Source of the DNA: Paraflavitalea pollutisoli
GTDB taxonomy: Bacteria; Bacteroidota; Bacteroidia; Chitinophagales; Chitinophagaceae
Assembly (NCBI RefSeq): GCF_029360705.1
Contig: NZ_JARKMX010000008.1
Location: 558,001 to 622,000 of the forward strand
DNA: 64,000 nucleotides
Reading direction: 5' to 3'
Shown here: positions 45,818-63,969 of the stretch, piece by piece
Position numbering within the stretch: the stretch's first letter is position 1
How the letters are laid out: every line of letters begins with the position of its first letter
Position numbers and translations under genes: made by a program
Notes under the pieces: model-generated
What the model was told of the DNA's origin: nothing
Databases searched by the model: none
What the model saw: the letters and a program-made list of their open reading frames with translations, nothing else

Positions 45818-46427
45818 TTTGCTGGTGGTCGACGATCACCCGATGGTATTGGAGGGGATGCGGTCGATGCTGGCCCAGTTTGGTTATGTACACCTGACGG
45901 GGCTGGCGAGCAATGCCTGGGAAGCGATGGACTTGATCAAACAAGAGCGGCCGCATATTGTGCTGACGGATATCAATATGCCCGAAGTGAGCGGTATCGA
46001 GCTGGCGGAAAAGATCCGCCGGGAGTTTCCCGGTGTGAAGGTAATTGCGATGAGTACGTTTAAAGAAAGAAGCTATATCGCCCAAATGATACAGCATGGC
46101 GCAGTAGGTTACCTGTTGAAAAGCGCTTCACGCGAAGAGATCGAAGAAGCCCTGCTGCGCGTGTATGAAGGGTATATGTATATGAGTCATCACCTGCACA
46201 TGACGGAACCCGAGCAGCAAGAAACGAAGCAACTGCCGGTGCTGACCTCCCGCGAAAAAGAGGTGTTGCAACTGATCTCCGACGGCTGTACCAATCCTGA
46301 GATCGCGAAGCGGTTGTTCATCAGTCTGCATACGGTGGATACGCACCGGAAAAACCTGCTGACGAAATTCAATGTCAACAATACGGCACTGTTGATCAAG
46401 ATCGCCACGAAGGCGGCGTTGTTGTAA
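45792..46427 (+). CDS. LuxR/NarL-family response regulator
   Basis: The 211-residue protein has a receiver domain (SLLVVDDHPMVLEGMRSML) with phosphoacceptor Asp60 (VLTDINMPEVSG) and Lys in YLLKSAS. The C-terminal GerE/LuxR helix-turn-helix reads LTSREKEVLQLISDGCTNPE then IAKRLFISLHTVDTHRKNLL. The start overlaps the end of the kinase gene by 26 bases; the second Met codon, 3 bases on, is equally possible. It activates or represses target promoters when phosphorylated by the kinase upstream. Confidence 0.92.
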   Translation: MMSTTEKISLLVVDDHPMVLEGMRSMLAQFGYVHLTGLASNAWEAMDLIKQERPHIVLTDINMPEVSGIELAEKIRREFPGVKVIAMSTFKERSYIAQMIQHGAVGYLLKSASREEIEEALLRVYEGYMYMSHHLHMTEPEQQETKQLPVLTSREKEVLQLISDGCTNPEIAKRLFISLHTVDTHRKNLLTKFNVNNTALLIKIATKAALL

Positions 46428-49092: not shown

Positions 49093-49204
49093 CGAATGGT
49101 TTTAGTGTAGGGAAATTACTGCATTCATCGCGAATACCCTCGGGCCGTTGTGTTTGTCCAGCGTAATTAACAGATCATTGGTCTTTTATTGGGGCAGCCA
49201 ATTG

Positions 49205-49242
49205 AAAAAAGCCGCCCCTGGTGTAGATACACGGAGGCGGCT
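49205..49242 (-). terminator. Rho-independent terminator closing the surface-protein cluster
   Basis: On the minus strand AGCCGCC (49236-49242 complement) and GGCGGCT (49210-49216 complement) form the stem, with an inner GTGTA/TACAC pairing, followed by six T residues (complement of 49205-49210). It lies 35 bases past the stop of the last collagen-like gene at 49278. Confidence 0.88.
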
Positions 49243-49277
49243 ATTGTGTTCAGCCTGCTATTATTATAGAATCACCC

Positions 49278-49949
49278 TTACTCCATCGTTTTGAAATCGG
49301 ACTCCTTCAGCTGGTAACGTTCCATGACTTGCTCCAGCGATAATGCTTTGAGGTCGATTGCACGGCTTCCGCCTCCTATTTGTACCTGGCCGGAGGGGAT
49401 AACGATCACCTTCAAGCCAGAGGCACTATAAGACGGCGCTTTCTGTGCAGCCGGGCTGGTCTGTTGTATATCGGCAACGATACGTACTGACAGGTAATCG
49501 TTGTTGCCTGTCTGATCGCGGTAATTCATCCAGGCTTCATAATTCTCTTCGCCGGTACTGTTGTTGCCCCCGATAAAGGGCATGGCTACCCAGGGAGCCT
49601 CCTGCGTGCTGGTGTTTTTTTTCATTTTTACATATACCAGCACCACCCCTTCCGGAATTGCACCGTCGCGGTCATCTACATAAAACCCGTCGTCATAATT
49701 GACAGAGCTTGCACTACTTGCCCGCTCCAACGTATAACCGGTGGTCAAAAAGGCATTCTTTTTCCAGCGGAATACATGGGCGGCCTGTGAGGTGTAGGCC
49801 TTCACGGCCCCATTACCGGTACCACCACTGCTGCCGGGCGGACCAGGGTTGCCTTGTGGCCCTTCGGGGCCTGCCGGTCCATCGGGTCCCTGTTTGTTGC
49901 AAGCTGTCAATACGGCGATCAGCAGCACATAGTAAAGTATCTTTTGCAT
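49278..49949 (-). CDS. Collagen-like stalk lipoprotein, third of three
   Basis: I use the ATG at 49947-49949, which yields MQKILYYVLLIAVLTAC, a lipoprotein signal with Cys17 (223 residues). Four residues later begins a run of about nine Gly-X-Y triplets (GPDGPAGPEGPQGNPGPPG, then GSSGGTGNG), the longest of the three paralogues. A domain of about 175 residues follows (AHVFRWKKNAFLTTGYTLER; LVYVKMKKNTSTQEAPWVAM; LSVRIVADIQQ), beta-rich in pattern and alignable in outline with the other two. It is the last gene before the terminator at 49205. I infer a lipid-anchored collagen-like rod holding a globular head at the outer-membrane surface; partner unknown. Confidence 0.78.
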   Translation of the reverse strand: MQKILYYVLLIAVLTACNKQGPDGPAGPEGPQGNPGPPGSSGGTGNGAVKAYTSQAAHVFRWKKNAFLTTGYTLERASSASSVNYDDGFYVDDRDGAIPEGVVLVYVKMKKNTSTQEAPWVAMPFIGGNNSTGEENYEAWMNYRDQTGNNDYLSVRIVADIQQTSPAAQKAPSYSASGLKVIVIPSGQVQIGGGSRAIDLKALSLEQVMERYQLKESDFKTME

Positions 49950-49975
49950 GTGAGTTGTTTTAATTGGTATTGATA

Positions 49976-50542
49976 TCAGCCCCATCCCAGCTGGTCGCTG
50001 CCGGTGGAGGGTATGATCACGAACTTTAAAAAGTCAATGGGCATCGGCTTGGGCGCATCGCGGTTGCCCCAGTCCTCCATCTCGGCCAGCACCGTGATCA
50101 CATAGCGGCCGGCAATTTTTTCTACCTGGTAGCTATAGGTGCGCAGGTCGTAAAAGTCAATGGGAATATTGGCCAATTGGAACACCCCTTTTCCATTGTA
50201 GCTCCTGTCGGTCCCCACTCCATAAATCAACAAAGCGCCATCGTCTATTTTGGTGGTGAGTGAATCGGGCAACCGGAAGGTATTGCCGGTGGCTGTACCC
50301 GATCTCCAGTTGAGCCGGTAAATGGCCTTGGTGGTCGTGCGGGCAGTCTCTACCCAGTTATAGGTTCCAGCGGACGCTGGTGTCAATACGGAAATGATGT
50401 TGGTGGCAATACCGCCACTCCCTGTGCCGGGTGCTCCTGCCGGGCCTTCCGGACCTTCTGGTCCCTGGGGACCGACCAGTCCTTCTTTGGTGCAAGCCAC
50501 CAGGCTGCAGCTGCAAAGCAATAATACGAGGTATCGTTTCAT
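49976..50542 (-). CDS. Collagen-like stalk lipoprotein, second of three
   Basis: The ATG at 50540-50542 gives MKRYLVLLLCSCSLVAC, a lipoprotein signal (Cys17; 188 residues). After TKE come about seven Gly-X-Y triplets (GLVGPQGPEGPEGPAGAPG), then a Gly/Ser hinge and a head domain of about 145 residues (TYNWVETARTTTKAIYRLNW; LPDSLTTKIDDGALLIYGVG; IDFLKFVIIPSTGSDQLGWG). Phrases such as LPDSL...IDDGALLIYG parallel LPDSL...IEKGLAVVYVG in the first paralogue, so the heads are homologous. It is 23 bases from the preceding gene. Known facts end at the signal and triplets; the rest is inference. Confidence 0.78.
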   Translation of the reverse strand: MKRYLVLLLCSCSLVACTKEGLVGPQGPEGPEGPAGAPGTGSGGIATNIISVLTPASAGTYNWVETARTTTKAIYRLNWRSGTATGNTFRLPDSLTTKIDDGALLIYGVGTDRSYNGKGVFQLANIPIDFYDLRTYSYQVEKIAGRYVITVLAEMEDWGNRDAPKPMPIDFLKFVIIPSTGSDQLGWG

Positions 50543-50565
50543 ACAAATAGTATTGGTGGTTTGGA

Positions 50566-51096
50566 TCAATTATTCAGGTTGAGGGTGTAGGTCTTCGCTG
50601 CACTGGCGATCACTACTTTAATCTTCGTTACGGCAATGGGGTCTTTGTCTTCCCCGTTAACCCCTTCTTTGATCTTGGCATAGATACCGAGGTTGAGTCC
50701 TTGAAAAGTGGCTTCGTAGATCTCGTCTTTCGCCGCGCCCCGAACCCAGGGCAGTTGGTACCAATCGTCTTCCGGGCCACCCACGTAAACGACCGCCAGG
50801 CCTTTTTCTATCACGTCCCGTAAACTGTCGGGCAGGTATATATTTCCGCCTTCCAGCCCAAAAACGCCATAACCACCCCATCCATCCGACAATTCCCACT
50901 TTAATTTGTCGGCGGGATCGTTTACAAAGGTGACCACGCTGCTACCGCCTTCTCCCCCACCCGCATTTTCGCCAGGTGGTCCGTCCGGTCCCTGCGGGCC
51001 TTCTGCGCCCATGGGGCCTTCCCGTTCGCAGGCTGCCAGCAGCAACCCCAGGCTGATGAGCAGGATGCCTGCAAACCGTTGTGTGCTTGTTTTCAT
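50566..51096 (-). CDS. Collagen-like stalk lipoprotein, first of three
   Basis: The ATG at 51094-51096 gives a lipoprotein signal ending GLLLAAC (Cys23; 176 residues). Earlier in-frame ATGs would add a Pro/Ser-rich lead copied from the end of the upstream gene in another frame and are rejected. After ERE, about six Gly-X-Y triplets follow (GPMGAEGPQGPDGPPGEN), then a Gly-rich hinge (AGGGEGG) and a head of about 125 residues (LPDSLRDVIEKGLAVVYVGG; DPIAVTKIKVVIASAAKTYT). It starts 37 bases after the fibronectin-III gene. The stalk is too short for a long fibre but enough to form a homotrimer or heterotrimer with its two paralogues. Confidence 0.78.
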   Translation of the reverse strand: MKTSTQRFAGILLISLGLLLAACEREGPMGAEGPQGPDGPPGENAGGGEGGSSVVTFVNDPADKLKWELSDGWGGYGVFGLEGGNIYLPDSLRDVIEKGLAVVYVGGPEDDWYQLPWVRGAAKDEIYEATFQGLNLGIYAKIKEGVNGEDKDPIAVTKIKVVIASAAKTYTLNLNN

Positions 51097-51133
51097 TGTT
51101 CTTGTTTTTATGGTTAATGATGTTGGTTCGTTT

Positions 51134-53110
51134 TCAATACCGGATGGTGGCCTCGTTGCTCCGGTCGCTTTCGGTGTTGTCGCTGGTGATGGCCCGGATG
51201 AAATAGAAATACTGGTGTCCTTTGGTGGCGGCCTTATCGGTGAAGGCATCGCCGGTTACGGTACCGGCCTTTACCGGATCCTGGCCACGTTCGTAACGGT
51301 ACACGGTATATTGTAGTGATTCACTTCCGGCGGGTGCTTCCCAATTCAACTGTATTCCGGTACCTACTTTGTTGGCGACTAACGATGCGGGCGCTGCGGG
51401 TTTATTGCCCGTGATGCTGACCGTTGCCCAGGTAGCGGGTACACTTTGTACACCGAGCAAGGATTGGGTGATCACACTGTAGCGGTACGATACGTTAGGT
51501 TGTACCAGTGTATCTGCAAATTGGTTGCTGCTGCAATAAATAGTGTCGGTGGTGTAGGTGCTTGTCCCTGTTGCCTTTTTACCGCGCAGCAGCTTATAGC
51601 CCGATACATTGGCGTCGTAATTACCTACGGCATCCCAGCCCACATATATACGGCCATCTTCGGCATAAGCGGTTACCCGCATGGGTGGTTTGGGGATGGG
51701 TAGGTTCTTCAACGGCCTGGCCACGGCGGTATCGGAAAAAGAACTTTCCACCTGACTGGTCGAGTAGGCTTTCAGGGCGTAGTTATACATTCGGTCGCCC
51801 CGTAGGCTGCTGTCGGTGTCGGTCCAGGTATACTGTTGTACGGTGTCGAGGGCAGGGATCATGGTGCGGATCAGTTGCAGGGGCTGTCCGCGTTCGGCCC
51901 GGTACAGCCAGAAACCGGTGGTGTTATCGGCGGGATGCTCCCAGGTGAGTACAACACCTTCTTTGTTGCCGGTCGCTTCGAGTTGCCGTGGCGGTGCCGG
52001 TAAGCGGGTATCCATGAAGCTGGCAGCAAAGGAGGTACTGCGTTTGGGTTTGAACTGCGTTTTGTACTCCACTTCAAAGTAGTAGAAATAAGGGGTGGCA
52101 GGCTTCACCTGCTGATCGAGGTAGTTGGTGTCGGTGGCTGAGAGGTCGGCAATGCGCTGAAAGCGGTTGAGTGAATTGGTGCTACGGTACAACGTCAGTG
52201 TCTTGATGAAAGCTGCCTCGGGCAATTGCCAGTTGATGTTGATGCCTTGTGCGGCACTATCTGCCAGGGCTTTTACGCGTTGCGGCATGGGCATTTGCAG
52301 TGGGTCGAGAGAGGCGATGGTGATGGTATCCGACACGGGGGCCGCATTACCCAGCACATCAAAAGCTTTTACAAAGTAGCGGTACAGGTGACCCGCTTTG
52401 GCGGAGGTGTCTTTCACCAGGTATTGTACCGAATCCTTGCCCGGCAGGTAACCTACGATGGCCGGCACTTTGGTAAAGACGCCATTGTCTTCGCTGCGCC
52501 AGGTTTCGATATGGTCGGGCTTATCCTGGAAGGTCGTGCGCCAGTACAACTGCAAATGACGTTGTGGTTTGTTGAAGACGGCCTGCTGGTACAAGGGAGT
52601 CGCCACGGACAAATTGTTGAAACGTACAGGTAAGGACAGTGCTGTATAATTAGTGCCGGTAGCCGTGACGCGGTATTGGTACGATTGGCCGGCCTTTACT
52701 TTTTCATCGAGCCAGATCATGTTGAAGCCAGCCAACACCGGTGTGCTGTAGCCGAGTACCCGCAGGGCAGATAGCGAGCCGGCTGCCTTACCCCGGTGCC
52801 AGATGGAATCGAGGCGCAGGTTGGATAGATCCTGTTGGTAAGGCAACAGGTTATTGGAGGCCAGGGCGCGTTGTTTGAAATCAGCAACGTTGGTAACTGC
52901 CGGTAACGTGGCTATAATCGTATAGTCGTTCTCGTTCGCGGCTTTGCGTTCGATCTTGTAGGCGGTAACAGGACCTTTGACATCGCTGATCACTTCACCG
53001 GTCAATACGAAGATGCCCTTGGCGCCGGGCCGAGCCAAGCCGGCCAGCAAATCCTGGGCTTGTGTCCGGAGGGCGGTGATGATGAGGAAGAAAAGAATGT
53101 ATTGCTTCAT
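51134..53110 (-). CDS. Exported protein with multiple fibronectin-III domains
   Basis: The 658-residue protein has a signal peptide (MKQYILFFLIITALRTQAQ) and then about four to five Fn3 modules. They are recognisable by repeated W-x-x-P/L turns and late YRYxV strands: YQYRVTATGTNYTALSLPV, LYRYFVKAFDVLGNAAPVSD, PYFYYFEVEYKTQFKPKRS, MYNYALKAYSTSQVESSFSD, SYRYSVITQSLLGVQSVPAT and YFYFIRAITSDNTESDRSNE. Fn3 arrays in secreted bacterial proteins act as spacers or binding modules. It lies 24 bases after the giant gene and 37 before the first collagen-like gene, on the same strand. There is no T9SS C-terminal sorting domain that I can see, so it is probably periplasmic or handled by the barrel of this cluster. 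Confidence 0.85.
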   Translation of the reverse strand: MKQYILFFLIITALRTQAQDLLAGLARPGAKGIFVLTGEVISDVKGPVTAYKIERKAANENDYTIIATLPAVTNVADFKQRALASNNLLPYQQDLSNLRLDSIWHRGKAAGSLSALRVLGYSTPVLAGFNMIWLDEKVKAGQSYQYRVTATGTNYTALSLPVRFNNLSVATPLYQQAVFNKPQRHLQLYWRTTFQDKPDHIETWRSEDNGVFTKVPAIVGYLPGKDSVQYLVKDTSAKAGHLYRYFVKAFDVLGNAAPVSDTITIASLDPLQMPMPQRVKALADSAAQGININWQLPEAAFIKTLTLYRSTNSLNRFQRIADLSATDTNYLDQQVKPATPYFYYFEVEYKTQFKPKRSTSFAASFMDTRLPAPPRQLEATGNKEGVVLTWEHPADNTTGFWLYRAERGQPLQLIRTMIPALDTVQQYTWTDTDSSLRGDRMYNYALKAYSTSQVESSFSDTAVARPLKNLPIPKPPMRVTAYAEDGRIYVGWDAVGNYDANVSGYKLLRGKKATGTSTYTTDTIYCSSNQFADTLVQPNVSYRYSVITQSLLGVQSVPATWATVSITGNKPAAPASLVANKVGTGIQLNWEAPAGSESLQYTVYRYERGQDPVKAGTVTGDAFTDKAATKGHQYFYFIRAITSDNTESDRSNEATIRY

Positions 53111-53134
53111 GATCGGGTGGTTATGTAGTGGGTG

Positions 53135-56100
53135 CTATTGTTTTTTACTGTTTGATTGGGGGAACGTGCTGCTGCCGCTGGATACCTCGAGGCGGAAACT
53201 GGAGTCATCCTGCGTGATGGTGCCCACGGCATTGAAGCCTATCGAGCCATAGGCCTCGCTCATCACACAGGCGCCTTCACATTTGCTGGTGCATACCAGG
53301 CCGCCACCGGCGTAAACGCGACCTTCCAGTCGTATATAACCCGTCACGGCCAAATTGTAGTTGCCATTGGTATTGTAGGTGCCATCGGCATCTACCCCCG
53401 CCCGCACGCCTACTTCTACCCCGGCGCAGGCATGGATGGCAGATACGCCGAGCCTGAAATAAGCGTTCACGAATATGCCCATGCCCATATTGTAGGTGGT
53501 GGTAGAGCCGAAGTTGATACCGAGGCGCACATCGCCACCCACTGTCACTTCCAGCGCGGCATCGACGAGCCCCAGGTCGATGTCGAAGTTGGGCACACCG
53601 GGGACTGGTATTTCGGCGCCTGCTTCAAAAAAGAAGCCGTCGAGTTGCTGCAATTGCGTATAGCCACGGGGCATTTCGTTGAGTTGCCGGAAATAATAGC
53701 TGTACTCTTTCAGCATGTCTTCGATGGCTGACTGCCGGTCGCTGGAGAGGTGCTTGTAGTTGCCGAAGAGCAGGAAGGCGCTGCCCCTTACGGAGGGGTT
53801 GCTCATGTCCATCGCACCGCCCGACATAAAGTAGTAACCATAGCGGTCCACTACCAGTTCGGCATCACCACTGATTGCCATGCTGCCTGCCTTGTTGTCG
53901 AAGGAGAGATTGCCCATGAGGCGGTGGTTGGCCATATCATAGCTCATGTTAAGCCCTTCGATGGGCGCCTCCATTTTCTTGAGCTTAACTTTTTGGTTAT
54001 TGACCTGTAAGGCACCCAGTACATCGAAGCGCATGCGCTTGCCATCAGCTGTAAAACCCATGCTTTCGGGCATGTCGCCGGTGATGTACAGGTTGTTCCA
54101 TTGGTTGTTGGTCACCCACATGCGGCCCTCGATGTTGGAGAGGAGGATCGGACTGTTGCCAGAGCCGCCCAGCCGTACCGACTGCTTTTGGGGTGTTTCA
54201 TCCAGTACCAGTTGGGTCTCCTGGCTGGTTTTGGTGAGGGTGAATGCTACATTCTTGAATACATCCGGATTCTCATCGCTCACGCGGCCCTTGATGATCA
54301 TTTGTCCGTTGGTGAAACTGATGGCAGTACTGTTGTTGCCATTGAAGGCCATATCGATTCCCTTCACGCGCACATTGTTCATGGCGAAGGGGCGTAAGGT
54401 CATGTTCGATATCGTATTCGCGCCGGTCTTTTCATAGAGCAGGCCGGTGGCATATACCGGGAAGGCTGGTATGGTGGGATCGAGTTGGCCACTCAGCGTG
54501 AGCAGCGTATTCGACAGGAATACATTCTGCAACGTGAAGTTGGCAATATTGTGCACTTTGTACACCGGCAGGCTGTTGCGCAGGTTCACCACCTGTTCGC
54601 CATTGCTGTAGAACCAGATATCGGTAAAGGGTATGACCGCATTGGCCGCCAGTCCACTCAGGTGCTGACCGCTGATCTCTGCGGCTGCCTGGTCATTGCT
54701 CTGGCTGGTAATGGCCAGGTACCAGGCGGGTGCAGCGAGGGTGGCATCGTAGCCAAAGGTGGCCCCGGTGCGCACGGTGACCGGTATGGCATTCAATAGT
54801 TTTACGTTGTTGGTTTGCAGGGAGCCGGGTGCAATCCAGAACTCCGTAGGATACAGGTCGGCGTTGTTGACCGGCATCTGCATGCCGGCTGCGTTGAGGG
54901 TGCCGTCGAAGCGAACGCCCTGCGCCCCGATGAAGACCCGCTGCCATTGCATGCTGAACGTACCGCCCAGTGCCGTGGTATGGTTGACGGCGCGGTTGAT
55001 GTCGTCCAGTTCGCGGTCTTTGTTGATGCGCACCTTGCCGATGGGCAGGTTGAGGTTGGGCTGGGAAACGTGTTCCAGGTTGGTCTGCAGCCTTGTGTCA
55101 AGTGTAAGGGAGTCTTTGTACAGGCGGGAGGAGCCTTTCGCGGCGATGGCGTTGAACGCGTGCAGACGGTAGGTGAGGTCGTTGCCATTGGCATTGCCCA
55201 CACCGATGCCCTGGCTGGTATTGACCACCGATGGGCCGTTGGCCGTGAATACCGGAAACTGCAGGGCACTGGCACCACTGCCGTTGACGAGGTTAATGGT
55301 TTGCCCGGCATCGAGGCCAATGCTGTTGCTGGTGAAGGAAGTGAGCTCGATCCTTACCCGCCCTTGCGCCACGCCTTGCTGCTGGTTGCCCACACCGTAG
55401 TTGTTGAGCGTAACACCATTGGTATTGTCGTGTAAGGTGGCTTCGTAGAAGTTGAACACGGTAATCGTCTGTTCGTTGATGTCTGTTTGCATGGGCAGCG
55501 TGCGCGGCCGGCAGTAAGGCTTCAGCGAATCATTGCGGATGTTGTCGGCTACCACAAACAGGTCCGAAAATTCGATGGTGCTGAGGCGCTTGCCACTGGC
55601 GGTAGAGCCGCCCATTTTAAAGACGGTATTGGCCGAGTCGCTGATGTTGACGATTCCGGAGATCTTAACCGAGGTGTTTACGGCTGTGTTGACGGCCGAT
55701 CCGGTTTGTCCTGCACCTCCGGCTGCTTGTCCTACACCTCCTTGTCCTAAGCCCGGACGGGCAGGATTTGCTGTGTTTTCGACGAGCTCTGTTACTTCCA
55801 GCGGGAAGCCCAACAGGCGGCTGAGGTCAAGGTTTTCATAGATGCGCAACTTGAAGTTGATGGTCGTGGTGGTGGTCGTGTTGCCGCCGCCGAGGGTATG
55901 GGCATAGACGATCAATCCGTAAGCAGTTTGGGTACTGGATTGCCCTTCGGTGAATTCCAATCCCTGGTGGCCTACTTTGGACGCTGTGAACGTCAGTATC
56001 GTATCCGCTGGCACGCCCTGCAGGGTGTACTCTCCGTTATTGTTGGTGAAGGTTTCGATGAGGGGGGAGGATCCTTTTACGCGTACCCGGGCATTGGCCA

Positions 56101-59100
56101 CCGGCATTTGACCGAAGGTGACTTTGCCTTTTACGATACGTGCCCGCTTAAGCAATACATCTACCCTTTTCCAGGTTTTGCCGGCTGTACTGTTGACCTG
56201 CTTATCGGTTACCACATAGCTGGTTCCATCGGGACCGGTAATGCGGAATTTGAAACTGGTGCCGGCATTGAGGAAGGCGAAGTCCACGCCGCCCCCGTTG
56301 TTCGTCAACTTCTGATAGGGCCCCAGGATGGGCGGCAGGTTGTTGCCTTGCCCGATGATCACATTGGTATTGTTCTGATTGTTGTTGTTATTGTTGTTGC
56401 CGGGTAGTTCAACGGGTGTGTTGGGCATATTGGATTGTGCGCCTTCGTACAACCAGGGGCTTTGCAGGCCGGTATACATCTCTGCGGCATTGCCGTTTTC
56501 CAACAACAATTCTACGCGGGCTTTGTCGAGCCGTTGTGGCGACTGCTGCCCTATGGCTCCTTTGATGTTGAAGTAGATGCGGTGCAGTTTGTATTTGATC
56601 ACAACGGCTTTGGTCAGTTCTTCGTCTGCCGGAACAGATAGGGTGATCGTATCTTTTTCGTACAGGTCATGGTTGGTCGGGTGGATCACGATCTTCCGGT
56701 TGCTGCCCGAGGGTAGCTGGATGGTGACGATGTGCTGGTTGTGGTCGTCGGGGTCCAGGGTGGAACGGTGGGTGATGCCTTCTACGCCTGTTGCAGGATC
56801 GTAATAGTGTACATCGGCAGCGGCCTTGGTGCCTTTTTCGTTTTTCAGGGTGAGGGTCACAGTGCCTTTGGGTTCCAGCCAGAGGGTGCCGGCATTGAAG
56901 GCCATACCTGTTTTCAGGATGCCTACATCGCCGCCTTCATTGCCATTCCAGGTGGTGAGGTAGTTGATGGCCTTGTAGGCGCTTTTGAAGCCGCGTTTAT
57001 CTACCTGCAGTATGTAATAGTAGCCAATGCTGTTGTTGAAGTAACCTTCGTAAGGCAGTAGTTCTTCGTTGACCCGTCCGTCGACGCCGGTCACGTCGGT
57101 ACGTTCCATTACCATGGGCGTGCCCTTGTGCTCCAGCCCTGCCTTGAGGAGTGTGAAGCCCGCCTCCTGCCCTTCATTCACCAGCAGCCCCCAGCGACCG
57201 TTGGCTGCTATTTGCCGGGCATTGAGCATGGCTGCGCGGCTGAGTTTCCACAGGTACCAGCGCGCTTCGGGTTGGTTGGCGCCGAGGTCATCGGTATTGC
57301 CGGCTGCCCGGTTTTTTACCTGGGCGTACACGCGCGGTTTCTGTTTATAAGTGCCTTGTATATGGTAATATTCTACCCACGAACCCAGTCGGCCGGGTAC
57401 GGAATATTGCTGTGTATTGAGCATACCCAGGCAGTTGCCTTCGGCACAGTCGCTGTTGATGTAGTGGCCGCCATTGGTGAGGCAACTGCTGCCTGCCTGC
57501 CATTGTGCTTTGGTGCCGTAGGCCAGGCGGTAATCATAATGCCCGATCGCCTGATCGGTCTGGTTGGGATTGGCAATACGGCTGATGATATAGTATGGCG
57601 TTTTATAGTCTGTACAAGCTTCCAGTACCAGGTGCTCGATCACGGCTTCGCCATTGGCATTGGAGATGCCTCTGCCGATCACTTCGTAGTCAAATGATCC
57701 CTCCCAGTGGATGGTATTGTCGCTGAAAATACCGGGACTGCCTTCGTCTTTGGGTATCATGCTTTTGCGGGCCGTACGCCGGCATACCATCACTTCCATG
57801 CCTTCTTTTACCAGGCTATGGTCATCTGCCTCTGCTACCAGTACGCGCAATCGGAATGTTTTGACCTGGGCGTACAGGGTGCCCATATCCTTGCTGGACG
57901 GAATACCATACAGGTATTGAATGGGGTTGGCATAATAAGAAGATCCCTGTGCAGCGAGCCTGACCATCAGCACCGTCTGGTGCCCACCGGAGATACTCCA
58001 GCCACCGGCATCGCCCCCACTGTTGTACTCGACCGGCGTATTCTTGATGGCGAAACTGATATCGTCTATGTCTGGTACGTTGAAGGTAAAGCTGCCATCG
58101 GCTGTCGTCGTTGCGGTGGCCAGTACGGTATTGCCAGGTAGTATATTCCCTTCGATCAAAGTGGGAGCACTGCCGGATGGCTGTGGGTTGATGAAGCGGG
58201 TCGCTTTGATGAGTTGCACCGTCATGCCGGCCAGTGGGCTGTTTTGGTAGCCGGAAAAACCACTCGTATTGCCAATAACGGAGAGGCCCTGCGCAACACC
58301 AATGTTCATACCGTTTACGGTACTGTTATTTTGGTTGTTTTGATTGCCCTGGCTGTTTTGTCCGCCCTGGTTTTGACCATTGGCGGCAACTGTGTTGCCG
58401 AAATTGTTTCTGTTGGAGGCGTAGCCACCCATCAGCCAGTAATAGCGCAGTTTGCCTTTCAGTTGGGTGTTGTTGAAGGTAGGGCCGGTGTATTCGCTGA
58501 TGGGTATATCGTTGACAGCCCCCTGGATAGCGGTACCTAACTGGAAGGTGACGATCTCGCTCCGGCCGAGGTTGTTGAGCAATACTTTCTCATTGCGGTC
58601 GCGGGCGATCACCTGCATGGCGTAGGTCTGCCCCTTTTCAAAAGGCAGGTCGAAGGGTTGGGTCACATAACTCTGTCCCAAGGCTTTTCGTTTGTTCACA
58701 ACCGGGTTACCGGCGCCGAAGTCGCGGGCGGCAGCAATGGCATCGTTGGGATTTTGTCCGGGTTGCACCTTTACCACGATCTGGTCGTATTCGATCAGTG
58801 AGCCCGCGAGGTTGCCCAATGGCGGCGTCCAGCTGAAGTTGAGGTTGTTCTGTTCTGCCGGGTAAGTATGGTTGTTTTGTGGATAGGTAATAACGGGAGG
58901 ATCGAGGCGGCTGAGGTTGAAATGGAAGCAACCGACGGAGGGATCCGATACCAGCTTACCCGTACGGTATTCGTAAGCGTTGATACAAACCTGGTAATTG
59001 CCTTCGGGCAACAGGCCCGTCTGGATGATATTGGCCAGCATGGCATCGTTGGCGTTGGTGGCGATGTTGTTTTGGTCGAAGAAGCGCATCAGGTCGGGGT

Positions 59101-59425
59101 TGGCCGTGAGCACTGTGGTGGCGCCGGGCCCCAGGCTGATGGGCATGGATGGCATAAAGTCTTTGTTGGTGCGGATGTACACGCCGCGGGATTCGTTGCT
59201 GATGCTGCCGCCCAGTTTGATGTCGACTGCCGTGCGGGAGGTATTCGTCAGTACGATCACCGCTTTATTCTCCAGGTGGTAATAGTCTTTGATATAAGCC
59301 GAATAAGGCGCGCGCAGGGTAAACGAAATGTTTACCTGTGCAGCAGCCGTGATGGAAGCAAAGGCCAGCAGGATGAGCAGGGTTCGCATCCCGTATTGTT
59401 TGGCAGTAAGTGGTATATTTTTCAT
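53135..59425 (-). CDS. Giant exported multi-domain protein, 2096 residues
   Basis: Begins MKNIPLTAKQYGMRTLLILL with a signal ending AAAQ; an ATG 12 bases earlier is possible. Order of parts: an N-terminal beta-sandwich (about 30-300) with LPEGNYQVCINAYEYRTGKL and WTPPLG; an Asn/Gln/Gly-rich linker (347-369); carboxypeptidase-regulatory-like modules; a poly-Asn linker (about 1007-1027); another regulatory-like domain (KGKVTFGQMPVANARVRVKG, about 1093-1112); a Gly/Ala linker (about 1222-1245); long beta-rich repeats (1250-1900); and a C-terminal region with a Cys cluster (CTSKCEGACV, about 2045-2054) and EAGAEIPVPGVPNFDIDLGL. The N-terminus may be of the TANFOR type, from memory and unchecked. 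I infer a surface or periplasm-spanning scaffold. It lies between the barrel and Fn3 genes, 26 and 24 bases apart. Confidence 0.8.
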   Translation of the reverse strand: MKNIPLTAKQYGMRTLLILLAFASITAAAQVNISFTLRAPYSAYIKDYYHLENKAVIVLTNTSRTAVDIKLGGSISNESRGVYIRTNKDFMPSMPISLGPGATTVLTANPDLMRFFDQNNIATNANDAMLANIIQTGLLPEGNYQVCINAYEYRTGKLVSDPSVGCFHFNLSRLDPPVITYPQNNHTYPAEQNNLNFSWTPPLGNLAGSLIEYDQIVVKVQPGQNPNDAIAAARDFGAGNPVVNKRKALGQSYVTQPFDLPFEKGQTYAMQVIARDRNEKVLLNNLGRSEIVTFQLGTAIQGAVNDIPISEYTGPTFNNTQLKGKLRYYWLMGGYASNRNNFGNTVAANGQNQGGQNSQGNQNNQNNSTVNGMNIGVAQGLSVIGNTSGFSGYQNSPLAGMTVQLIKATRFINPQPSGSAPTLIEGNILPGNTVLATATTTADGSFTFNVPDIDDISFAIKNTPVEYNSGGDAGGWSISGGHQTVLMVRLAAQGSSYYANPIQYLYGIPSSKDMGTLYAQVKTFRLRVLVAEADDHSLVKEGMEVMVCRRTARKSMIPKDEGSPGIFSDNTIHWEGSFDYEVIGRGISNANGEAVIEHLVLEACTDYKTPYYIISRIANPNQTDQAIGHYDYRLAYGTKAQWQAGSSCLTNGGHYINSDCAEGNCLGMLNTQQYSVPGRLGSWVEYYHIQGTYKQKPRVYAQVKNRAAGNTDDLGANQPEARWYLWKLSRAAMLNARQIAANGRWGLLVNEGQEAGFTLLKAGLEHKGTPMVMERTDVTGVDGRVNEELLPYEGYFNNSIGYYYILQVDKRGFKSAYKAINYLTTWNGNEGGDVGILKTGMAFNAGTLWLEPKGTVTLTLKNEKGTKAAADVHYYDPATGVEGITHRSTLDPDDHNQHIVTIQLPSGSNRKIVIHPTNHDLYEKDTITLSVPADEELTKAVVIKYKLHRIYFNIKGAIGQQSPQRLDKARVELLLENGNAAEMYTGLQSPWLYEGAQSNMPNTPVELPGNNNNNNNQNNTNVIIGQGNNLPPILGPYQKLTNNGGGVDFAFLNAGTSFKFRITGPDGTSYVVTDKQVNSTAGKTWKRVDVLLKRARIVKGKVTFGQMPVANARVRVKGSSPLIETFTNNNGEYTLQGVPADTILTFTASKVGHQGLEFTEGQSSTQTAYGLIVYAHTLGGGNTTTTTTINFKLRIYENLDLSRLLGFPLEVTELVENTANPARPGLGQGGVGQAAGGAGQTGSAVNTAVNTSVKISGIVNISDSANTVFKMGGSTASGKRLSTIEFSDLFVVADNIRNDSLKPYCRPRTLPMQTDINEQTITVFNFYEATLHDNTNGVTLNNYGVGNQQQGVAQGRVRIELTSFTSNSIGLDAGQTINLVNGSGASALQFPVFTANGPSVVNTSQGIGVGNANGNDLTYRLHAFNAIAAKGSSRLYKDSLTLDTRLQTNLEHVSQPNLNLPIGKVRINKDRELDDINRAVNHTTALGGTFSMQWQRVFIGAQGVRFDGTLNAAGMQMPVNNADLYPTEFWIAPGSLQTNNVKLLNAIPVTVRTGATFGYDATLAAPAWYLAITSQSNDQAAAEISGQHLSGLAANAVIPFTDIWFYSNGEQVVNLRNSLPVYKVHNIANFTLQNVFLSNTLLTLSGQLDPTIPAFPVYATGLLYEKTGANTISNMTLRPFAMNNVRVKGIDMAFNGNNSTAISFTNGQMIIKGRVSDENPDVFKNVAFTLTKTSQETQLVLDETPQKQSVRLGGSGNSPILLSNIEGRMWVTNNQWNNLYITGDMPESMGFTADGKRMRFDVLGALQVNNQKVKLKKMEAPIEGLNMSYDMANHRLMGNLSFDNKAGSMAISGDAELVVDRYGYYFMSGGAMDMSNPSVRGSAFLLFGNYKHLSSDRQSAIEDMLKEYSYYFRQLNEMPRGYTQLQQLDGFFFEAGAEIPVPGVPNFDIDLGLVDAALEVTVGGDVRLGINFGSTTTYNMGMGIFVNAYFRLGVSAIHACAGVEVGVRAGVDADGTYNTNGNYNLAVTGYIRLEGRVYAGGGLVCTSKCEGACVMSEAYGSIGFNAVGTITQDDSSFRLEVSSGSSTFPQSNSKKQ

Positions 59426-59463
59426 GTGTGCTGTCACTAAAGGTTATTGATGGAGGGTGGCGG

Positions 59464-61170
59464 TTAGAAAGTGATGCCGTAGCCGACGCGGAATGTTTTT
59501 TCATCGAAACTTTTGACCACGGTTTGGTCTTTGGCTTCGTTCTTCAGGTAATTGAAGAGCAGCTGTACGCTGTTTTGTTTGATGAGGCGGAAGCGTAAGC
59601 CCACGTCGGCATTGAGGGTATAACCATTTTGGGTACCGTCGAATTTGTTGCTGTTGTAGGTGGCGTTGGTGGTGAAGGCCAGTTTTTGCTTGAAGACCGG
59701 CAGCGTAGCGCCTACACCGGCGCCTACCGAGCCGATATCACCCGTGGTGAGACTGGTATTGTTGTAATTGGCAGAAGCATTGAAGGACAGTCCTGTTTTC
59801 AACAAGGTGTGGCTGTATACCAGGGTCGAGAACAGGGTGCGTTGATCGGCGACGGCGTTGATGCTTTTGACGGGGCTGTTGAGTGACTGCAGGCTGGCTA
59901 CCAGTTGCAGGTTCTTCACCGTGTTTTCATTGACGAAGTTGAAGTAAGGCATCACGACGAAGCTGTTGGATACCTGTTTAAAGAGTTCATCATTGGGTGA
60001 AGTACGTAAGGGATTTTGGGTGATGCCGAAATTACTGTAATTGATGTTGAGGCCAAACCAGTTGACCGGCATATAGCTGATATTGCCATTGCCGGTGAAG
60101 CGTTTGGAGGTGGCCAGTTTCTGACGATAGATATTGTCTTCCTGCCAGCCCAGGCTGCCGTTGAGGAGCAGTTTGCCTTTGTTGAGACGCAGGGAGGGCA
60201 ACACGGAATATTGTTGTATATCGCTTTGAAAAAAATAAGCACCCATGGATTTGTAATCGGGGTCGATGCGCTTGTAGCTGACGCCAAGGCCGATGACCTT
60301 GCCGGCATAACTGAGCCTCGTTTCACCAGCAGTCAGTACCTGCGAGGAGATGCGGGAGTCGAAGAAGTCGGTCAGTTGGCGGAGAGTCTTCGGATCGGAG
60401 GAGTCCAGTTCGATTTTCGGGCTATAGATGTCATTGGTGTAATGGCTCAGCCCGATATCGGTTTGCCAGGTAAAGTGTTTGAAGAAGGTGAGCCGCCAGG
60501 ATAGACCAAGCACATGGTTCTCGGCGGGTGGTAGGGAGTCTCTGAATTTGGAGTCGACGGAGCCTTCTTTGTCCCACCCTTTGAGGTAGGAGAAGTCGAG
60601 GTAATTCTTCTCTGTCCCCACACCAATCTTCGCCGCATAGGCCATACGGGTATAGGCGGCCACGGGCCGAAAGGCCAGCGGATTGGCCATCTGTGCCGAG
60701 TCGATGGAGGCAGACCGGTTGAGGCGGCCATACATGAAGCCTAGGCGAAGCCCTTTGGGGTTGAGCTCTACCCCGCCGCCCAGCATGCGGTAGCCTGCCA
60801 GGGTGTAGGGCGAGAACTGGATGTTGCGGTAGCCGGCATGTACGGTGATCCATTTGTACCGGGGACTGATGCCGTATTGGTTGAAGGGTTGGTAGTACCG
60901 GTTCTCAAAATTACTCAGCAGGAAGGAGAACGGTACTTGTACACCGAGTACGGTGAGCGTGGGGGTGCCGGCAATCATCCAGGAGCTGGCCTGTTTGCGG
61001 TTTTCGATGCCGCTGGCGCCGTATTGTTCAAACTGGAAGTTGAGGGTGCCGCTGAAGCGAATGGGCTTTTTGAAGTTGATGTTTTCAATATCCTGTGCGA
61101 TGACCGGCCCTGTCAGCAGGACCAGTAGCAGCAGGATGGATAATTTGTTGGTGTATGGGTGATAGTGCAT
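59464..61170 (-). CDS. Outer-membrane beta-barrel protein, 568 residues
   Basis: A signal peptide (MHYHPYTNKLSILLLLVLLTGPVIA) is followed by DIENINFKKPIRFSGTLNFQ and then some 22-26 alternating amphipathic strands with aromatic girdles and short turns (for example YKWITVHAGYRNIQFSPYTL; NYLDFSYLKGWDKEGSVDS; GLNINYSNFGITQNPLRTS). The C-terminus ends FRVGYGITF with a terminal Phe, as barrels need for Bam-mediated insertion. No plug domain. It is first in the structural gene set, 26 bases before the giant gene, and preceded by direct repeats at 61211-61270. I infer that it exports or anchors the giant protein; a general porin is the alternative. Confidence 0.82.
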   Translation of the reverse strand: MHYHPYTNKLSILLLLVLLTGPVIAQDIENINFKKPIRFSGTLNFQFEQYGASGIENRKQASSWMIAGTPTLTVLGVQVPFSFLLSNFENRYYQPFNQYGISPRYKWITVHAGYRNIQFSPYTLAGYRMLGGGVELNPKGLRLGFMYGRLNRSASIDSAQMANPLAFRPVAAYTRMAYAAKIGVGTEKNYLDFSYLKGWDKEGSVDSKFRDSLPPAENHVLGLSWRLTFFKHFTWQTDIGLSHYTNDIYSPKIELDSSDPKTLRQLTDFFDSRISSQVLTAGETRLSYAGKVIGLGVSYKRIDPDYKSMGAYFFQSDIQQYSVLPSLRLNKGKLLLNGSLGWQEDNIYRQKLATSKRFTGNGNISYMPVNWFGLNINYSNFGITQNPLRTSPNDELFKQVSNSFVVMPYFNFVNENTVKNLQLVASLQSLNSPVKSINAVADQRTLFSTLVYSHTLLKTGLSFNASANYNNTSLTTGDIGSVGAGVGATLPVFKQKLAFTTNATYNSNKFDGTQNGYTLNADVGLRFRLIKQNSVQLLFNYLKNEAKDQTVVKSFDEKTFRVGYGITF

Positions 61171-61210
61171 GGAGCAGTTGTTTTACCACACAAAATTGGT
61201 TCATACACCA

Positions 61211-61270
61211 GGGTGAGACAATCGCGAGATCGGGTGAGAAAAGGGGGATGGGCGGTAGATTGGGGTGAAC
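61211..61270. promoter_or_regulatory. Three GGGTGA direct repeats upstream of the barrel gene
   Basis: GGGTGAGA occurs at 61211-61218 and 61232-61239, a spacing of 21 bases (two helical turns), and GGGTGAAC at 61263-61270, 31 bases further (about three turns). They lie 41-100 bases before the barrel start at 61170, in the gap after the LuxR-type regulator gene. Phased direct repeats suit binding of the regulator encoded at 61313-61957. Confidence 0.4.
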
Positions 61271-61312
61271 AGGTGGCGGGCTGGTTAGGGCGAACCCAGG
61301 TGGGATGGTTGC

Positions 61313-61957
61313 TTACACGAGTTTGTCGCGCAGGGCGCGGGCGACGGCTTCGGTGTTGGAGTTGACCTGCAACTTGAGGTAGATATTGCGGATATGTGTT
61401 TTGATCGTGTCGAGGGATAGGTCCATGGCGGCGGCGATCATCTTATAGCTTTTGCCGGTGACGAGTTGTTGCAATACGGCAGTCTCTTTGGCGGTGAGTT
61501 CCACTTTCTCTGTGGTTGGCCGTTCGGGCATATTGGCGCGGAACAGTTCCATCACGCGGCGGGCGATGCCGGGTGTCATGGGCGATCCGCCGCTGCTGAC
61601 GTTTTGCAGGGCTTCGATATAACCGGTGAGGGAGGTTGTTTTTAGTATGTATCCCGAAGCACCGGCGCAAATGGCGTCGAAGATATAGGCGTCTTCGGAG
61701 AACACCGTTTGTATCAGCACATGTACGTCCGGGAAACTGGCTTTGATGATGCGGGTGGCTTCGATGCCGTTCATGCCCGGCATTTCTATGTCCATCAGTA
61801 CGGTATCGGGTCTGTCTTTTTCGATGCGGTGCAGCAGGTCGCTGCAATTGTGGTAGGCGCCGGTACAGATAAATCCCGGCGTACCGTTGAGTACGATCTG
61901 CAGACTTTCCCGGAGGTGCTTGCTGTCTTCAAATATGACGATGCGGCTGTCTGGCAT
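61313..61957 (-). CDS. LuxR/NarL-family response regulator
   Basis: The 214-residue protein has a receiver domain (RIVIFEDSKHLRESLQIVL) with phosphoacceptor Asp56 (VLMDIEMPGMNG) and the conserved Lys in YILKTTS. The LuxR-type helix-turn-helix reads LTAKETAVLQQLVTGKSYKM then IAAAMDLSLDTIKTHIRNIY. It lies 128 bases after the TPR kinase gene and 142 before the barrel gene, all on the minus strand. It is the probable direct regulator of the barrel-giant-Fn3-collagen set. Confidence 0.92.
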   Translation of the reverse strand: MPDSRIVIFEDSKHLRESLQIVLNGTPGFICTGAYHNCSDLLHRIEKDRPDTVLMDIEMPGMNGIEATRIIKASFPDVHVLIQTVFSEDAYIFDAICAGASGYILKTTSLTGYIEALQNVSSGGSPMTPGIARRVMELFRANMPERPTTEKVELTAKETAVLQQLVTGKSYKMIAAAMDLSLDTIKTHIRNIYLKLQVNSNTEAVARALRDKLV

Positions 61958-62085
61958 AGGTGTGAAGCAAAAGAACGATTAAATTATGATATGACGCCTC
62001 GCGAATATGGGTGAGGTGGCTCCGCAGGCGGCTGAAAGGCAATCCCGACATTCGGCGGGACAGCGAGGAAATACATTATTCAGTA

Positions 62086-63969
62086 TTATACCGGGATCAG
62101 CAAATGCACTTCGGTGCCGTGGCCGGATTGGGAGTTGATGGCCAGTTCGCCTTTGAGTTCGCGGGCGCGGTTACGCATATTATCGAGCCCGTTGCCGCTG
62201 CCGGCGGCGGCTGTGTCGAACCCTTTGCCATCGTCGCGTACCTGCAAGCCCAGTTGTTTGTCGTGCAGCGTGATGGTAGCATGGATGCCAGATGCTGCGC
62301 TGTATTTGGCGGCATTGTTGATCGCTTCCTTAAAGACGAGGTAGAAGTTTTTTCGTTGCTGCATCGTCAGCTTCAGTTTGTGCAGCACTTCCGTTCCGTC
62401 GAGCGTACAGGTCATGTTCTGGGCGCCACAGATCTCGTACATGAATCGCTCCATACGTTGTATGAGGCTGGTGGCTTCGTCTTCGCCGGGTTTGATCATC
62501 CATACGATATCGCCCATGCGGTCCATGGTTTCGCGGGCATTGGTACTCACCTTTTCCAGGATCGCCGTCTGACCGGCATCCTGACCGTTTTGCAAGGCGG
62601 CTACCTGGCTTAGCATATGAATACTGCTGAGGGAGCTGCCTACCTCGTCGTGCAGGTCGGCGGCAATGCGGTTGCGTAATTCCAGTTCCTTCATGCGTTG
62701 CCGTAGCCGGTGGCGGCTGATGAGCAGGAAGATGCCTCCAACGGCCAGTGCGACCAGGATCACCGAGCCCCCCAGGTACAGGCGCTGGCTGCGGATCTCC
62801 TGTTGTTGCAGTTGTTTGTCTTTGTGCAGCAGGGCAATTTCCTTGTCCTTCTGGGCTACTTCAAAGTTCTTTTCCAGGGTGGCCGTTTCTGCATCGTATT
62901 GTTGTTTGTAGAGGCTGTCGCCCAGTTGCAGGGCGATCTTTGACTGTTCGAATGCTTTCTGGTGTTCGCCCAGTCCGGCATAGGCATCGGCGAGGGCGAC
63001 GGCAGCATCCCGCTTGAAAGTGTATTCGTTTTCCAGCGTTGCATAATGGTACGACTGCTGGCCTGCAGCCAGCGCTGCTGCATAGTTTTTGTCTTCGTTG
63101 TACAATTCAGCCATGCGGGCATAAGCGACGGTCATTTGTAGGTTGTTGCCCTGTTGCTGCCCCCACTCCAACGCTTTTTCGAAATAGGGCCTGGCCTCCC
63201 TGAATTTCTTTTGCAGGATATAGATACTACCAACTTCAGCGTGGTAGGTGGCGAGGTTTTTATGGTCTTCTGTCGATTTGCCCAGTTTCAGGGCGTGTTG
63301 ATGATAGACCAGGGCGCTGTCGTATTGCTCCTGTAGTCTGAACATATCGCCAAAATCGCTATAGATCTGCCCTTCCATCATGTAGTTGCTGTCTGCCTGG
63401 TAATATTGCAGCGCCCGGTGGTAGTTTTTAGTACATTGATCGTATTGTCGTTGCCGGCTGTATACGTCGCCGATAATGTGATAGATACGACCCAACCGGT
63501 CTTTGTCGTTCGCTTTTTCGGCATACACCAGGGCGGTATCGCAGTATACGAGTGCCTTCCGCGAATCGTGCAGGTTGAGGTAGTTATCGGCCCGATTGAG
63601 GTACACGAGCGCGAGGCGTGAGGGATCGCCGGTGAGTTGGCTATAATAGATGGCTGTATCGGAGTAGATAATGGAACTGTCGAGCTGGCCATTGAAAGAA
63701 TAGCCGGTGGCGATATTGATGTAGCAGCGGGCCAGGCCTTTGATAAAGTTGACGCGTTTGGCCAGGGCGGCGCCTTGTTTAAAATAGTTTACGGCGAGTT
63801 GTGGATCTTGGTGCACGTACAAGGCGCCGATATCGCGCAGCAGCATCACTTTGGCGCTGTCTTCTTTGGCGGTTGGTAATTTCTTGAGCAATGAGTCCAG
63901 CTTACTGCTTTGCGCCGAAGAAATGGCGCAGATGAGCAGCAGACAGCCGGTCAGGAGGCGATGATACAT
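62086..63969 (-). CDS. TPR sensor histidine kinase (HisKA_3 type)
   Basis: The 627-residue protein has a signal peptide (MYHRLLTGCLLLICAISSAQ). About eight to nine TPR repeats (about 40-340; ARCYINIATGYSFNGQLDSS, GDMFRLQEQYDSALVYHQHA) are followed by a coiled stretch (TLEKNFEVAQKDKEIALLHK) and one transmembrane helix (about 393-415, VILVALAVGGIFLLIS). The HisKA_3 helix carries His440 (RIAADLHDEVGSSLSSIHM), and the HATPase_c domain has VFKEAINNAAKYS and VRDDGKGFD. It forms a two-component system with the LuxR-type regulator downstream. By position it senses a periplasmic or cell-envelope state that governs the surface cluster. Confidence 0.92.
   Translation of the reverse strand: MYHRLLTGCLLLICAISSAQSSKLDSLLKKLPTAKEDSAKVMLLRDIGALYVHQDPQLAVNYFKQGAALAKRVNFIKGLARCYINIATGYSFNGQLDSSIIYSDTAIYYSQLTGDPSRLALVYLNRADNYLNLHDSRKALVYCDTALVYAEKANDKDRLGRIYHIIGDVYSRQRQYDQCTKNYHRALQYYQADSNYMMEGQIYSDFGDMFRLQEQYDSALVYHQHALKLGKSTEDHKNLATYHAEVGSIYILQKKFREARPYFEKALEWGQQQGNNLQMTVAYARMAELYNEDKNYAAALAAGQQSYHYATLENEYTFKRDAAVALADAYAGLGEHQKAFEQSKIALQLGDSLYKQQYDAETATLEKNFEVAQKDKEIALLHKDKQLQQQEIRSQRLYLGGSVILVALAVGGIFLLISRHRLRQRMKELELRNRIAADLHDEVGSSLSSIHMLSQVAALQNGQDAGQTAILEKVSTNARETMDRMGDIVWMIKPGEDEATSLIQRMERFMYEICGAQNMTCTLDGTEVLHKLKLTMQQRKNFYLVFKEAINNAAKYSAASGIHATITLHDKQLGLQVRDDGKGFDTAAAGSGNGLDNMRNRARELKGELAINSQSGHGTEVHLLIPV

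Follow-up and report, generated by a model that had tools for sequence, protein, structure and literature searches.

TANFOR proteins of Bacteroidetes have been published as polymorphic toxins, many of them with unknown C-termini, and type IX export has been put forward for them as a hypothesis (PMC7073777, in the parts of the paper available to us); of the other TANFOR literature, only a 2025 survey of toxin genes looks related, judging by its title (PMC11796102). For SprB/SprF and type B substrates, the available parts of two papers describe a giant surface protein encoded beside its own barrel, with cognate pairing (PMC12618676, PMC9143113). Here we analyzed a 64,000-nucleotide stretch of the 8.76 Mb Paraflavitalea pollutisoli genome (the window), which holds a cluster of minus-strand genes for a two-component pair, a predicted outer-membrane barrel, a giant protein with a TANFOR-like front, a fibronectin type III (Fn3) protein, and three collagen-like lipoproteins. 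Loci of this kind consist of two co-varying blocks, one formed by the barrel and the giant's front (~301 residues) and the other by the remainder of the giant and the Fn3 protein, and between two Runella species the second block differs as a whole cassette with sharp junctions. We consider it moderately likely that this is a TANFOR-type display locus, in which a constant platform (barrel and giant front) carries exchangeable cargo (giant body and Fn3 protein). A literature search on collagen and Fn3 in Bacteroidetes found nothing describing such a locus.

The locus shares several features with the TANFOR toxins as far as they are covered in the available text of PMC7073777: an N-terminus that may be TANFOR-like, a probable signal peptide and a very long exported protein, Fn3 genes nearby (COG3401 is enriched in Table 1 of that paper) in a type IX-positive genome, and exchange of the part behind the N-terminus. 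Unlike those toxins, the window's giant has neither a toxin domain nor an immunity gene, and its TANFOR match lies below cut-off; the locus has a dedicated barrel and collagen-stub lipoproteins (the text of PMC7073777 contains neither the word barrel nor the word collagen); and in the window's relatives the Fn3 protein is exchanged together with the giant body. With SprB/SprF, as presented in the available parts of PMC12618676 and PMC9143113, it shares a giant encoded beside its own outer-membrane barrel in cognate pairing. In contrast to SprB/SprF, the barrel gene lies upstream, the constant module sits at the N-terminus, and searches gave no type B sorting domain; the window's barrel is also longer (568 aa, against about 300-390 for PorP-family frames) and has no PorP-family match. 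Contact-dependent and two-partner systems tie a constant front to an outer-membrane partner and vary the C-terminus. The present locus likewise has a constant front with an outer-membrane partner and an exchangeable rear, but it differs in that no POTRA match was found, the exchange takes in more than 1000 residues and a second gene, and no toxin family is seen in most of the scanned cargos. The three lipoproteins resemble bacterial collagen-like lipoproteins and adhesins in having G-X-Y repeats behind a lipid anchor, together with a knob, but differ in that they have only 6-9 triplets and a knob for which scans of the window proteins gave no Pfam or NCBIfam family.

To place the cluster among its relatives, we searched genome contigs with the barrel and kept the best 80 of 494 relatives; a simple gene finder called the barrel in 79 of these 80 loci (not in L132). 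The hidden Markov models (HMMs) applied to the neighboring genes were built from earlier-fetched loci, some of them in the same genomes as the 79 counted. The next same-strand gene after the barrel carries the giant's front module in 77 of the 79 loci, at gaps of -100 to 79 bases. An Fn3 protein comes directly after the giant in 58 loci and with one gene in between in 6; none was found in the remaining 15, many of which lie on short contigs. A reverse search from the giant, over 20 stretches hand-chosen out of a longer list in the family draw and consisting mostly of long frames, gave a barrel directly upstream in 17, further off in 2, and none in 1. In a draw across the phylum, a front-module gene lies within the stretch at 15 of 20 barrel loci. 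The sequence-only reading had named scattered homologues as the observation that would count against a single system; instead, most related loci across Bacteroidota preserve the barrel-giant-Fn3 order, which rules out a chance run of genes. Together with the fixed positions of the collagen-like genes and the enrichment of receiver-domain genes upstream (both below), this upholds the earlier proposal of one conserved multi-gene assembly. A barrel without a curated family directly upstream of a TANFOR-type giant is new here.

Among the best 80 of 494 relatives, the closest barrel is 90% identical and stands in the same gene order in a Niastella metagenome-assembled genome (L105). Three of five genomes in the genus draw have a barrel match (the window's own, one with a barrel at 90%, and one with two at about 30%), and with matches scattered in this way the locus is patchy. 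Two barrel loci with different cargo types lie about 30 kb apart on one contig of Pedobacter foliorum (L160 and L136). One cargo type has an extra gene of about 353-396 aa behind the giant (L173:17967-19046, L176:17662-18723, L034:5689-6879), for which scans of the L176 and L034 copies gave no convincing family.

The two blocks emerged from comparing four units over all locus pairs: the barrel, giant residues 1-320, the giant from residue 450 on, and the Fn3 protein. Across the 82 loci with all four units, the Spearman correlation was 0.77 between barrel and front module and 0.74 between body and Fn3 protein, while the four cross-block values were 0.15-0.18; sets of 85 and 96 loci gave the same picture. 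At a barrel identity of 0.5 or more there are 388 pairs: 201 with unrelated bodies, 135 with related bodies, and 52 in between. Counting the Fn3 protein as kept at an identity of at least 0.3, it was kept in none of the 197 scorable unrelated-body pairs, in all 110 scorable related-body pairs, and in 8 of 51 in-between pairs. Since pairs share loci, we drew non-overlapping pairs 200 times as a control, obtaining on average 14 unrelated-body pairs, none of which keeps the Fn3 protein, and 13 related-body pairs, all of which do. Clustering the units gave adjusted Rand values of 0.96 (front and barrel), 0.77 (body and Fn3), and 0.39 (body and barrel), with a fourth value of 0.37, at thresholds of our own choosing (thresholds of 0.2-0.3 merge all or nearly all of the barrels into a single cluster); an earlier set of class labels, in which L162 and L175 had joined the main class through weak links, was set aside. 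In 25 loci, the collagen-like protein encoded directly before the barrel tracks the barrel (0.52) rather than the body (0.14). That the locus is two exchangeable blocks had escaped the sequence-only reading.

When the ten body types that have several members were placed on a quick tree of the barrels of 95 loci, they required at least 26 changes, between the minimum of 9 and the shuffled mean of 57, so that body type follows lineage in part and has nevertheless been exchanged repeatedly. All 22 body labels need 37 changes and the front-module labels 24, two figures that are not comparable, as the number of front labels is not given. The sharpest case comes from Runella limosa and R. defluvii, whose DNA is 88% identical over 4.3 kb, from the regulator and barrel to about codon 368 of the giant. 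Identity is 93% in the last 60-base steps and ends within 60 bases; from the break through the Fn3 gene there is no blastn match, after which identity returns at 94.7%. Neither stretch contains any N. The break falls at the end of the second N-terminal domain, corresponding to about residue 301 of the window's giant, and pairs of Spirosoma and Pedobacter loci lose identity at the same module end.

Although the sequence-only reading could not match the cluster to a named system, the front of the giant looks like the TANFOR domain described by Jana, Salomon and Bosis (2020), by which the giant can be tied to a named class. The TIGR02542 (TANFOR) match, at residues 33-165, is below cut-off (E 3.6e-4, 20.5 bits against a cut-off of 67), as it is in the search of the whole genome (E 3.2e-5); outside the window and the barrel-linked giants of genomes G249 and G289, the front module was called by our own HMM, built from barrel- and giant-linked loci, instead of the curated label. 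The giant begins with a hydrophobic stretch and an AQ cleavage-like site; here and throughout, signal peptides and lipoboxes were judged by eye. The earlier count of 2096 residues holds from the ATG. Long pieces of its C-terminal half are 45-56% identical in three relatives, and conservation is even along the protein, the C-terminal region being as conserved as the remainder among close relatives. Counting fragments, 57 of the 77 giant-sized proteins at barrel loci have a region related to this C-terminal region (GC in Table 1); in the phylum draw such regions appear at E 1e-10 in only 4 of 296 genomes, each with a barrel match. Library scans found no toxin family in the window's giant, nor did NCBIfam in 46 homologous C-terminal regions, and directly 3' of the giant there is no immunity gene: the Fn3 gene, the three lipoprotein genes and the terminator follow instead. 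Short proteins of about 360-410 aa that match part of the giant's front region and lack the long body are common in the family draw, and the window's genome has a second such short front-like protein (example at G000:C15:861327-861782, L003). In two nearly identical loci with nearly identical barrels, the giant is split into two frames in one (L120) and whole in the other (L121).

In a few other genomes, a platform of this kind bears nuclease toxins. Toxin-type families were found in two or three of the 38 giant C-termini that are not of the GC type (Col-Pyo DNase, LHH, and a weak TNT match). The Col-Pyo DNase match is strong (E 3.9e-41, L195); at that locus a short barrel open reading frame (ORF) of 336 aa lies downstream. 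Barrel matches also occur in 4 of 72,556 plasmid records, where the barrels are annotated as hypothetical proteins. Two of these are barrel-giant loci (L275, NC_018743.1; L276, NZ_CP031032.1), one of them with a nuclease tip and an immunity gene. The Emticicia plasmid pEMTOL03 encodes, in order, an SprB-repeat protein, the barrel, the giant, and a SUKH-type immunity gene, its giant combining the front module (own HMM, E 4.3e-70) with a C-terminal WHH nuclease; the Runella plasmid pSP2_2 has a regulator and kinase on the other strand, followed by barrel, giant, and Fn3.

The barrel itself is predicted as such from its signal peptide, its terminal F, and matches that all stay below threshold (DUF7840, E 0.0073; OMP_b-brl, E 0.12). 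No curated family exceeds cut-off for the window's barrel, and none of relevance does so for 56 members of the barrel family. It has no TIGR03519 match and is not among the five PorP-family matches of its genome, and TIGR03519 is not listed for any of the 56 barrels at E 0.1. A Pfam scan of the window's barrel gave no POTRA or other translocase domain. Profile comparison scored the barrel at 10% against PorP (12 sequences) and 0.5% against PorV (10 sequences), values that are uninformative because PorP against PorV itself reaches only 1.4%. Searching solved structures with alignments of the barrel and the giant's C-terminal region gave nothing credible (best E 2.4 and 0.29), and a hydrophobicity scan for the number of strands was too rough to use. 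Some barrels are about 815 aa long, with a C-terminal extension (L047:11547-13994, L048:5197-7653); the L047 extension has a weak, sub-threshold apolipoprotein match.

Library scans of the window proteins gave no family over cut-off for the type IX secretion (T9SS) core, gliding, Sus, curli or pili. Neither the giant nor the Fn3 protein has the sorting-domain families TIGR04183 or TIGR04131, and no SprB-repeat or sorting-domain neighbor appeared among the window proteins scanned (nine and eight in two library scans). Elsewhere, sorting-domain neighbors occur at L047 and L194, and an SprB-repeat neighbor on the Emticicia plasmid. The window's genome has SprA, and all 91 barrel genomes of the phylum draw are among the 228 genomes with SprA (compared by eye). 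Because 135 of 140 genera have SprA, this co-occurrence supports a link weakly, and we rejected it as proof that the barrel belongs to type IX secretion, being too general.

We propose the following working order for a display locus. All exported products would reach the periplasm by Sec. The barrel, in the outer membrane, would bind the giant's N-terminal module (about residues 34-301) and thereby hold the giant by its front, with SprF and its relatives as the nearest model, by analogy. The giant would leave through SprA or through the barrel, crossing the outer membrane most likely via the type IX translocon and passing to the barrel as SprB does to SprF; it would then stay anchored on the barrel with its body outside. 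The cargo would be the giant's remainder (about 1800 residues with linkers, beta-sandwich-like domains, and the conserved C-terminal part) plus the Fn3 protein, which may bind or chaperone the giant body. The collagen-stub lipoproteins, with their knob domain, would be accessory outer-membrane parts, and the two-component pair would switch expression. In the window, the cargo is probably a surface or contact protein.

Several observations weigh against this proposal. Neither TIGR04183 nor TIGR04131 was found in the C-termini of 46 GC-type giants and 38 others (at least 4 of the 38 are cut at contig ends), nor in the 54 of 65 Fn3 partners scanned, so a type IX route would have to operate without its usual signal; the barrel matches neither the PorP/SprF nor the PorV models; and toxin-type families are rare, at the two or three of 38 given above. 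The curated TANFOR model matches only 9 of 296 genomes, none over cut-off (the nine include the barrel-linked giants of genomes G249 and G289 and of the window), so most module calls rest on our own HMM, and 5 of the 20 phylum-draw barrel loci have no front module in the stretch, two of these (L193, L194) having one 6-7 kb away. Cross-block correlations are small yet non-zero, with 0 to 5 of 500 permutations as high, body types still cluster on the barrel tree (26 changes against a shuffled 57), and the window's own clade of eight loci shows no exchange, body and barrel going together. The main caveat is physical linkage: each block is contiguous, so that linkage and a recombination hot spot could mimic the co-variation in part, without any protein contact.

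Taken to its end, that caveat becomes a purely genetic explanation, in which hot-spot recombination inside the giant gene co-inherits its neighbors and neither the barrel nor the Fn3 protein has to do with the giant's work. Linkage alone does predict block co-variation, but breaks fall repeatedly where the same domain ends, the Fn3 gene is kept in 0 of about 14 non-overlapping unrelated-body pairs, and the gene order is retained over several Bacteroidota families; we regard this explanation as improbable. A less remote alternative, though still unlikely, makes the barrel itself the giant's secretion channel, two-partner-like and independent of type IX, with the N-terminal module as targeting signal. 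It would account for the co-variation of barrel and N-terminal module and for the absence of type IX sorting domains from the scanned giants and Fn3 partners, and the constant part is N-terminal, as in two-partner secretion. The absence of a POTRA or other translocase domain in the barrel speaks against it; so, in principle, does the presence of SprA in all 91 barrel genomes, which says little given its near ubiquity among genera.

Two other alternatives concern what the giant is. It could be an unrecognized polymorphic toxin whose conserved C-terminal part serves as a novel domain for toxicity or delivery, as would suit the published description of the TANFOR class as polymorphic toxins, many with unknown C-termini (PMC7073777, available parts), and the Col-Pyo DNase (L195) and WHH (Emticicia plasmid) carried by relatives near barrels. 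That part is long (about 800 aa), common to 57 of 77 giant-sized proteins at barrel loci, and as conserved as the remainder among close relatives; the Fn3 and collagen-like genes come next in L105-L108 as far as the stretches reach, and in the window the terminator comes after them. We judge a toxin in the window to be quite unlikely. In the most doubtful of the alternatives, the giant never leaves the periplasm and hangs from the inner side of the barrel, where it would act as a bridge, a lipid-transfer device or an envelope scaffold. Although the missing sorting domain and a long C-terminal part with many amphipathic stretches (in a rough scan) would fit, related giants with nuclease tips, encoded beside this barrel family, would have to exit the cell. 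Cargo exchange is moreover typical of exposed or antagonistic proteins.

ORF calling on the window confirmed eight minus-strand ORFs between 49204 and 63969 (Table 1), with intergenic gaps of 128, 142, 26, 24, 37, 23, and 26 bases in transcript order, in agreement with the gaps of 23-142 bases first reported; the barrel-giant gap of 26 bases becomes 38 if the giant begins at ATG. The single terminator claimed for the cluster's end also holds: a hairpin with a U run folds there at -24.5 kcal/mol over a 67-base stretch (z -3.15; 2 of 200 shuffles equally good). A consensus terminator scan missed it, probably due to the scan's loop limit of 8.

Table 1. Features of the proposed display locus and its accessory genes in the window (positions of the 64,000-nucleotide stretch).
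Feature	Position	Strand	Basis
TPR sensor histidine kinase, 627 aa	62086..63969	-	TPR, HisKA_3, HATPase_c matches; order shared with L105, L106
NarL/LuxR-type response regulator, 214 aa	61313..61957	-	receiver and GerE matches
Predicted outer-membrane barrel, 568 aa	59464..61170	-	signal peptide by eye, C-terminal F, weak sub-threshold matches
TANFOR-type giant, 2100 aa from GTG (2096 from next ATG)	53135..59437	-	ORF, TIGR02542 match
Giant: constant N-terminal module, about residues 34-301, TANFOR-like and Ig/Fn3-like part	58535..59338	-	co-varies with barrel
Giant: N/Q-rich linker, residues about 345-372, just behind relatives' cargo-exchange boundary	58322..58405	-	
Giant: conserved C-terminal "GC" region, 806 aa, beta-rich by eye	53135..55555	-	relatives at barrel loci
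Fn3 protein, 658 aa, signal peptide by eye	51134..53110	-	fn3, E 3.3e-10
COL1: lipoprotein, 6 G-X-Y triplets and knob domain	50566..51096	-	likely ATG 51096
COL2: lipoprotein, 7 G-X-Y triplets and knob domain	49976..50542	-	likely ATG 50542
COL3: lipoprotein, 9 G-X-Y triplets, knob domain and C-terminal tail	49278..49949	-	likely ATG 49949
Intrinsic-terminator-like hairpin, cluster end	49204..49242	-	RNA folding versus shuffles

Each of the three lipoproteins has a lipobox (LAAC, LVAC, LTAC; LPAM_1 match for COL3, the other two by eye) followed by G-X-Y repeats, as in collagen-like lipoproteins, with a collagen family match only for COL3 (E 0.007). The three collagen-like lipoproteins of the sequence-only reading thus stand, but "stalks" was generous: the longest runs are only 6, 7, and 9 triplets, and we rejected long fibers in favor of stubs at the lipid anchor followed by the knob domain. 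Defined by at least six consecutive G-X-Y triplets, collagen-like genes occupy the position directly before the barrel (-1) in 24 of 77 loci and account for 12 of 94 genes at +3 to +5, behind the Fn3 gene; the 459 genes from -8 to -2 and the 223 from 0 to +2 (682 together) include none. This restriction to two places is new here. Of the 36 collagen-like genes, 30 pass a crude lipobox pattern and six fail. The knobs of the window's lipoproteins are homologous to the knobs encoded at -1 in Pedobacter and relatives (hhalign 99%, E 4.9e-18), and the C-terminal tail of COL3 recurs in Pedobacter relatives. The knob model matches 24 of 296 genomes, many via the repeat part, and lone knob proteins of ~170-190 aa are found elsewhere; the domain is not exclusive to barrel loci.

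Receiver-domain genes are enriched just upstream of the barrel (32 of 297 genes at -4 to -1, against 6 of 260 at -9 to -5), and at least one lies within five genes upstream in 33 of 79 loci. The kinase and regulator, which had been called dedicated, fit that description in the nearest relatives only (L105 and L106, same order): the pair is rearranged in L107 and L108, and in 46 of 79 loci the five genes upstream include no receiver gene. Behind the kinase of L106 (and L085) lies a second, shorter kinase-like ORF (416 aa) that might be a duplicate or a fragment. On the window's other strand, 43805-46427 holds a 670-aa ORF and a LuxR-type regulator (211 aa); this regulator resembles the barrel-adjacent one, which is thus one of several paralogues, and the 670-aa ORF may be its kinase.

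Among loci of the TANFOR kind, the barrel partner, the collagen-stub lipoproteins, and the cassette-wise exchange of cargo in relatives are new. A wider generalization, which we offer only as a tentative possibility, is a Bacteroidota-wide platform for display or delivery, distinct from sorting-domain-dependent type IX secretion, in which an N-terminal TANFOR-type module would dock on its own barrel family and recombined cassettes would range from nuclease weapons to non-toxic giants, also on plasmids. For TANFOR-type proteins, whose export was left open by the paper defining them as toxins, the barrel is a specific candidate for the outer-membrane partner and the front module a docking site that can be tested; the fixed front, with whole cassettes exchanged behind it, marks a natural module boundary from which to study the system. 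Our results suggest that toxin and non-toxin cargos share one platform, and that these bacteria have a modular system for placing very different proteins, sometimes toxins, on the cell surface.

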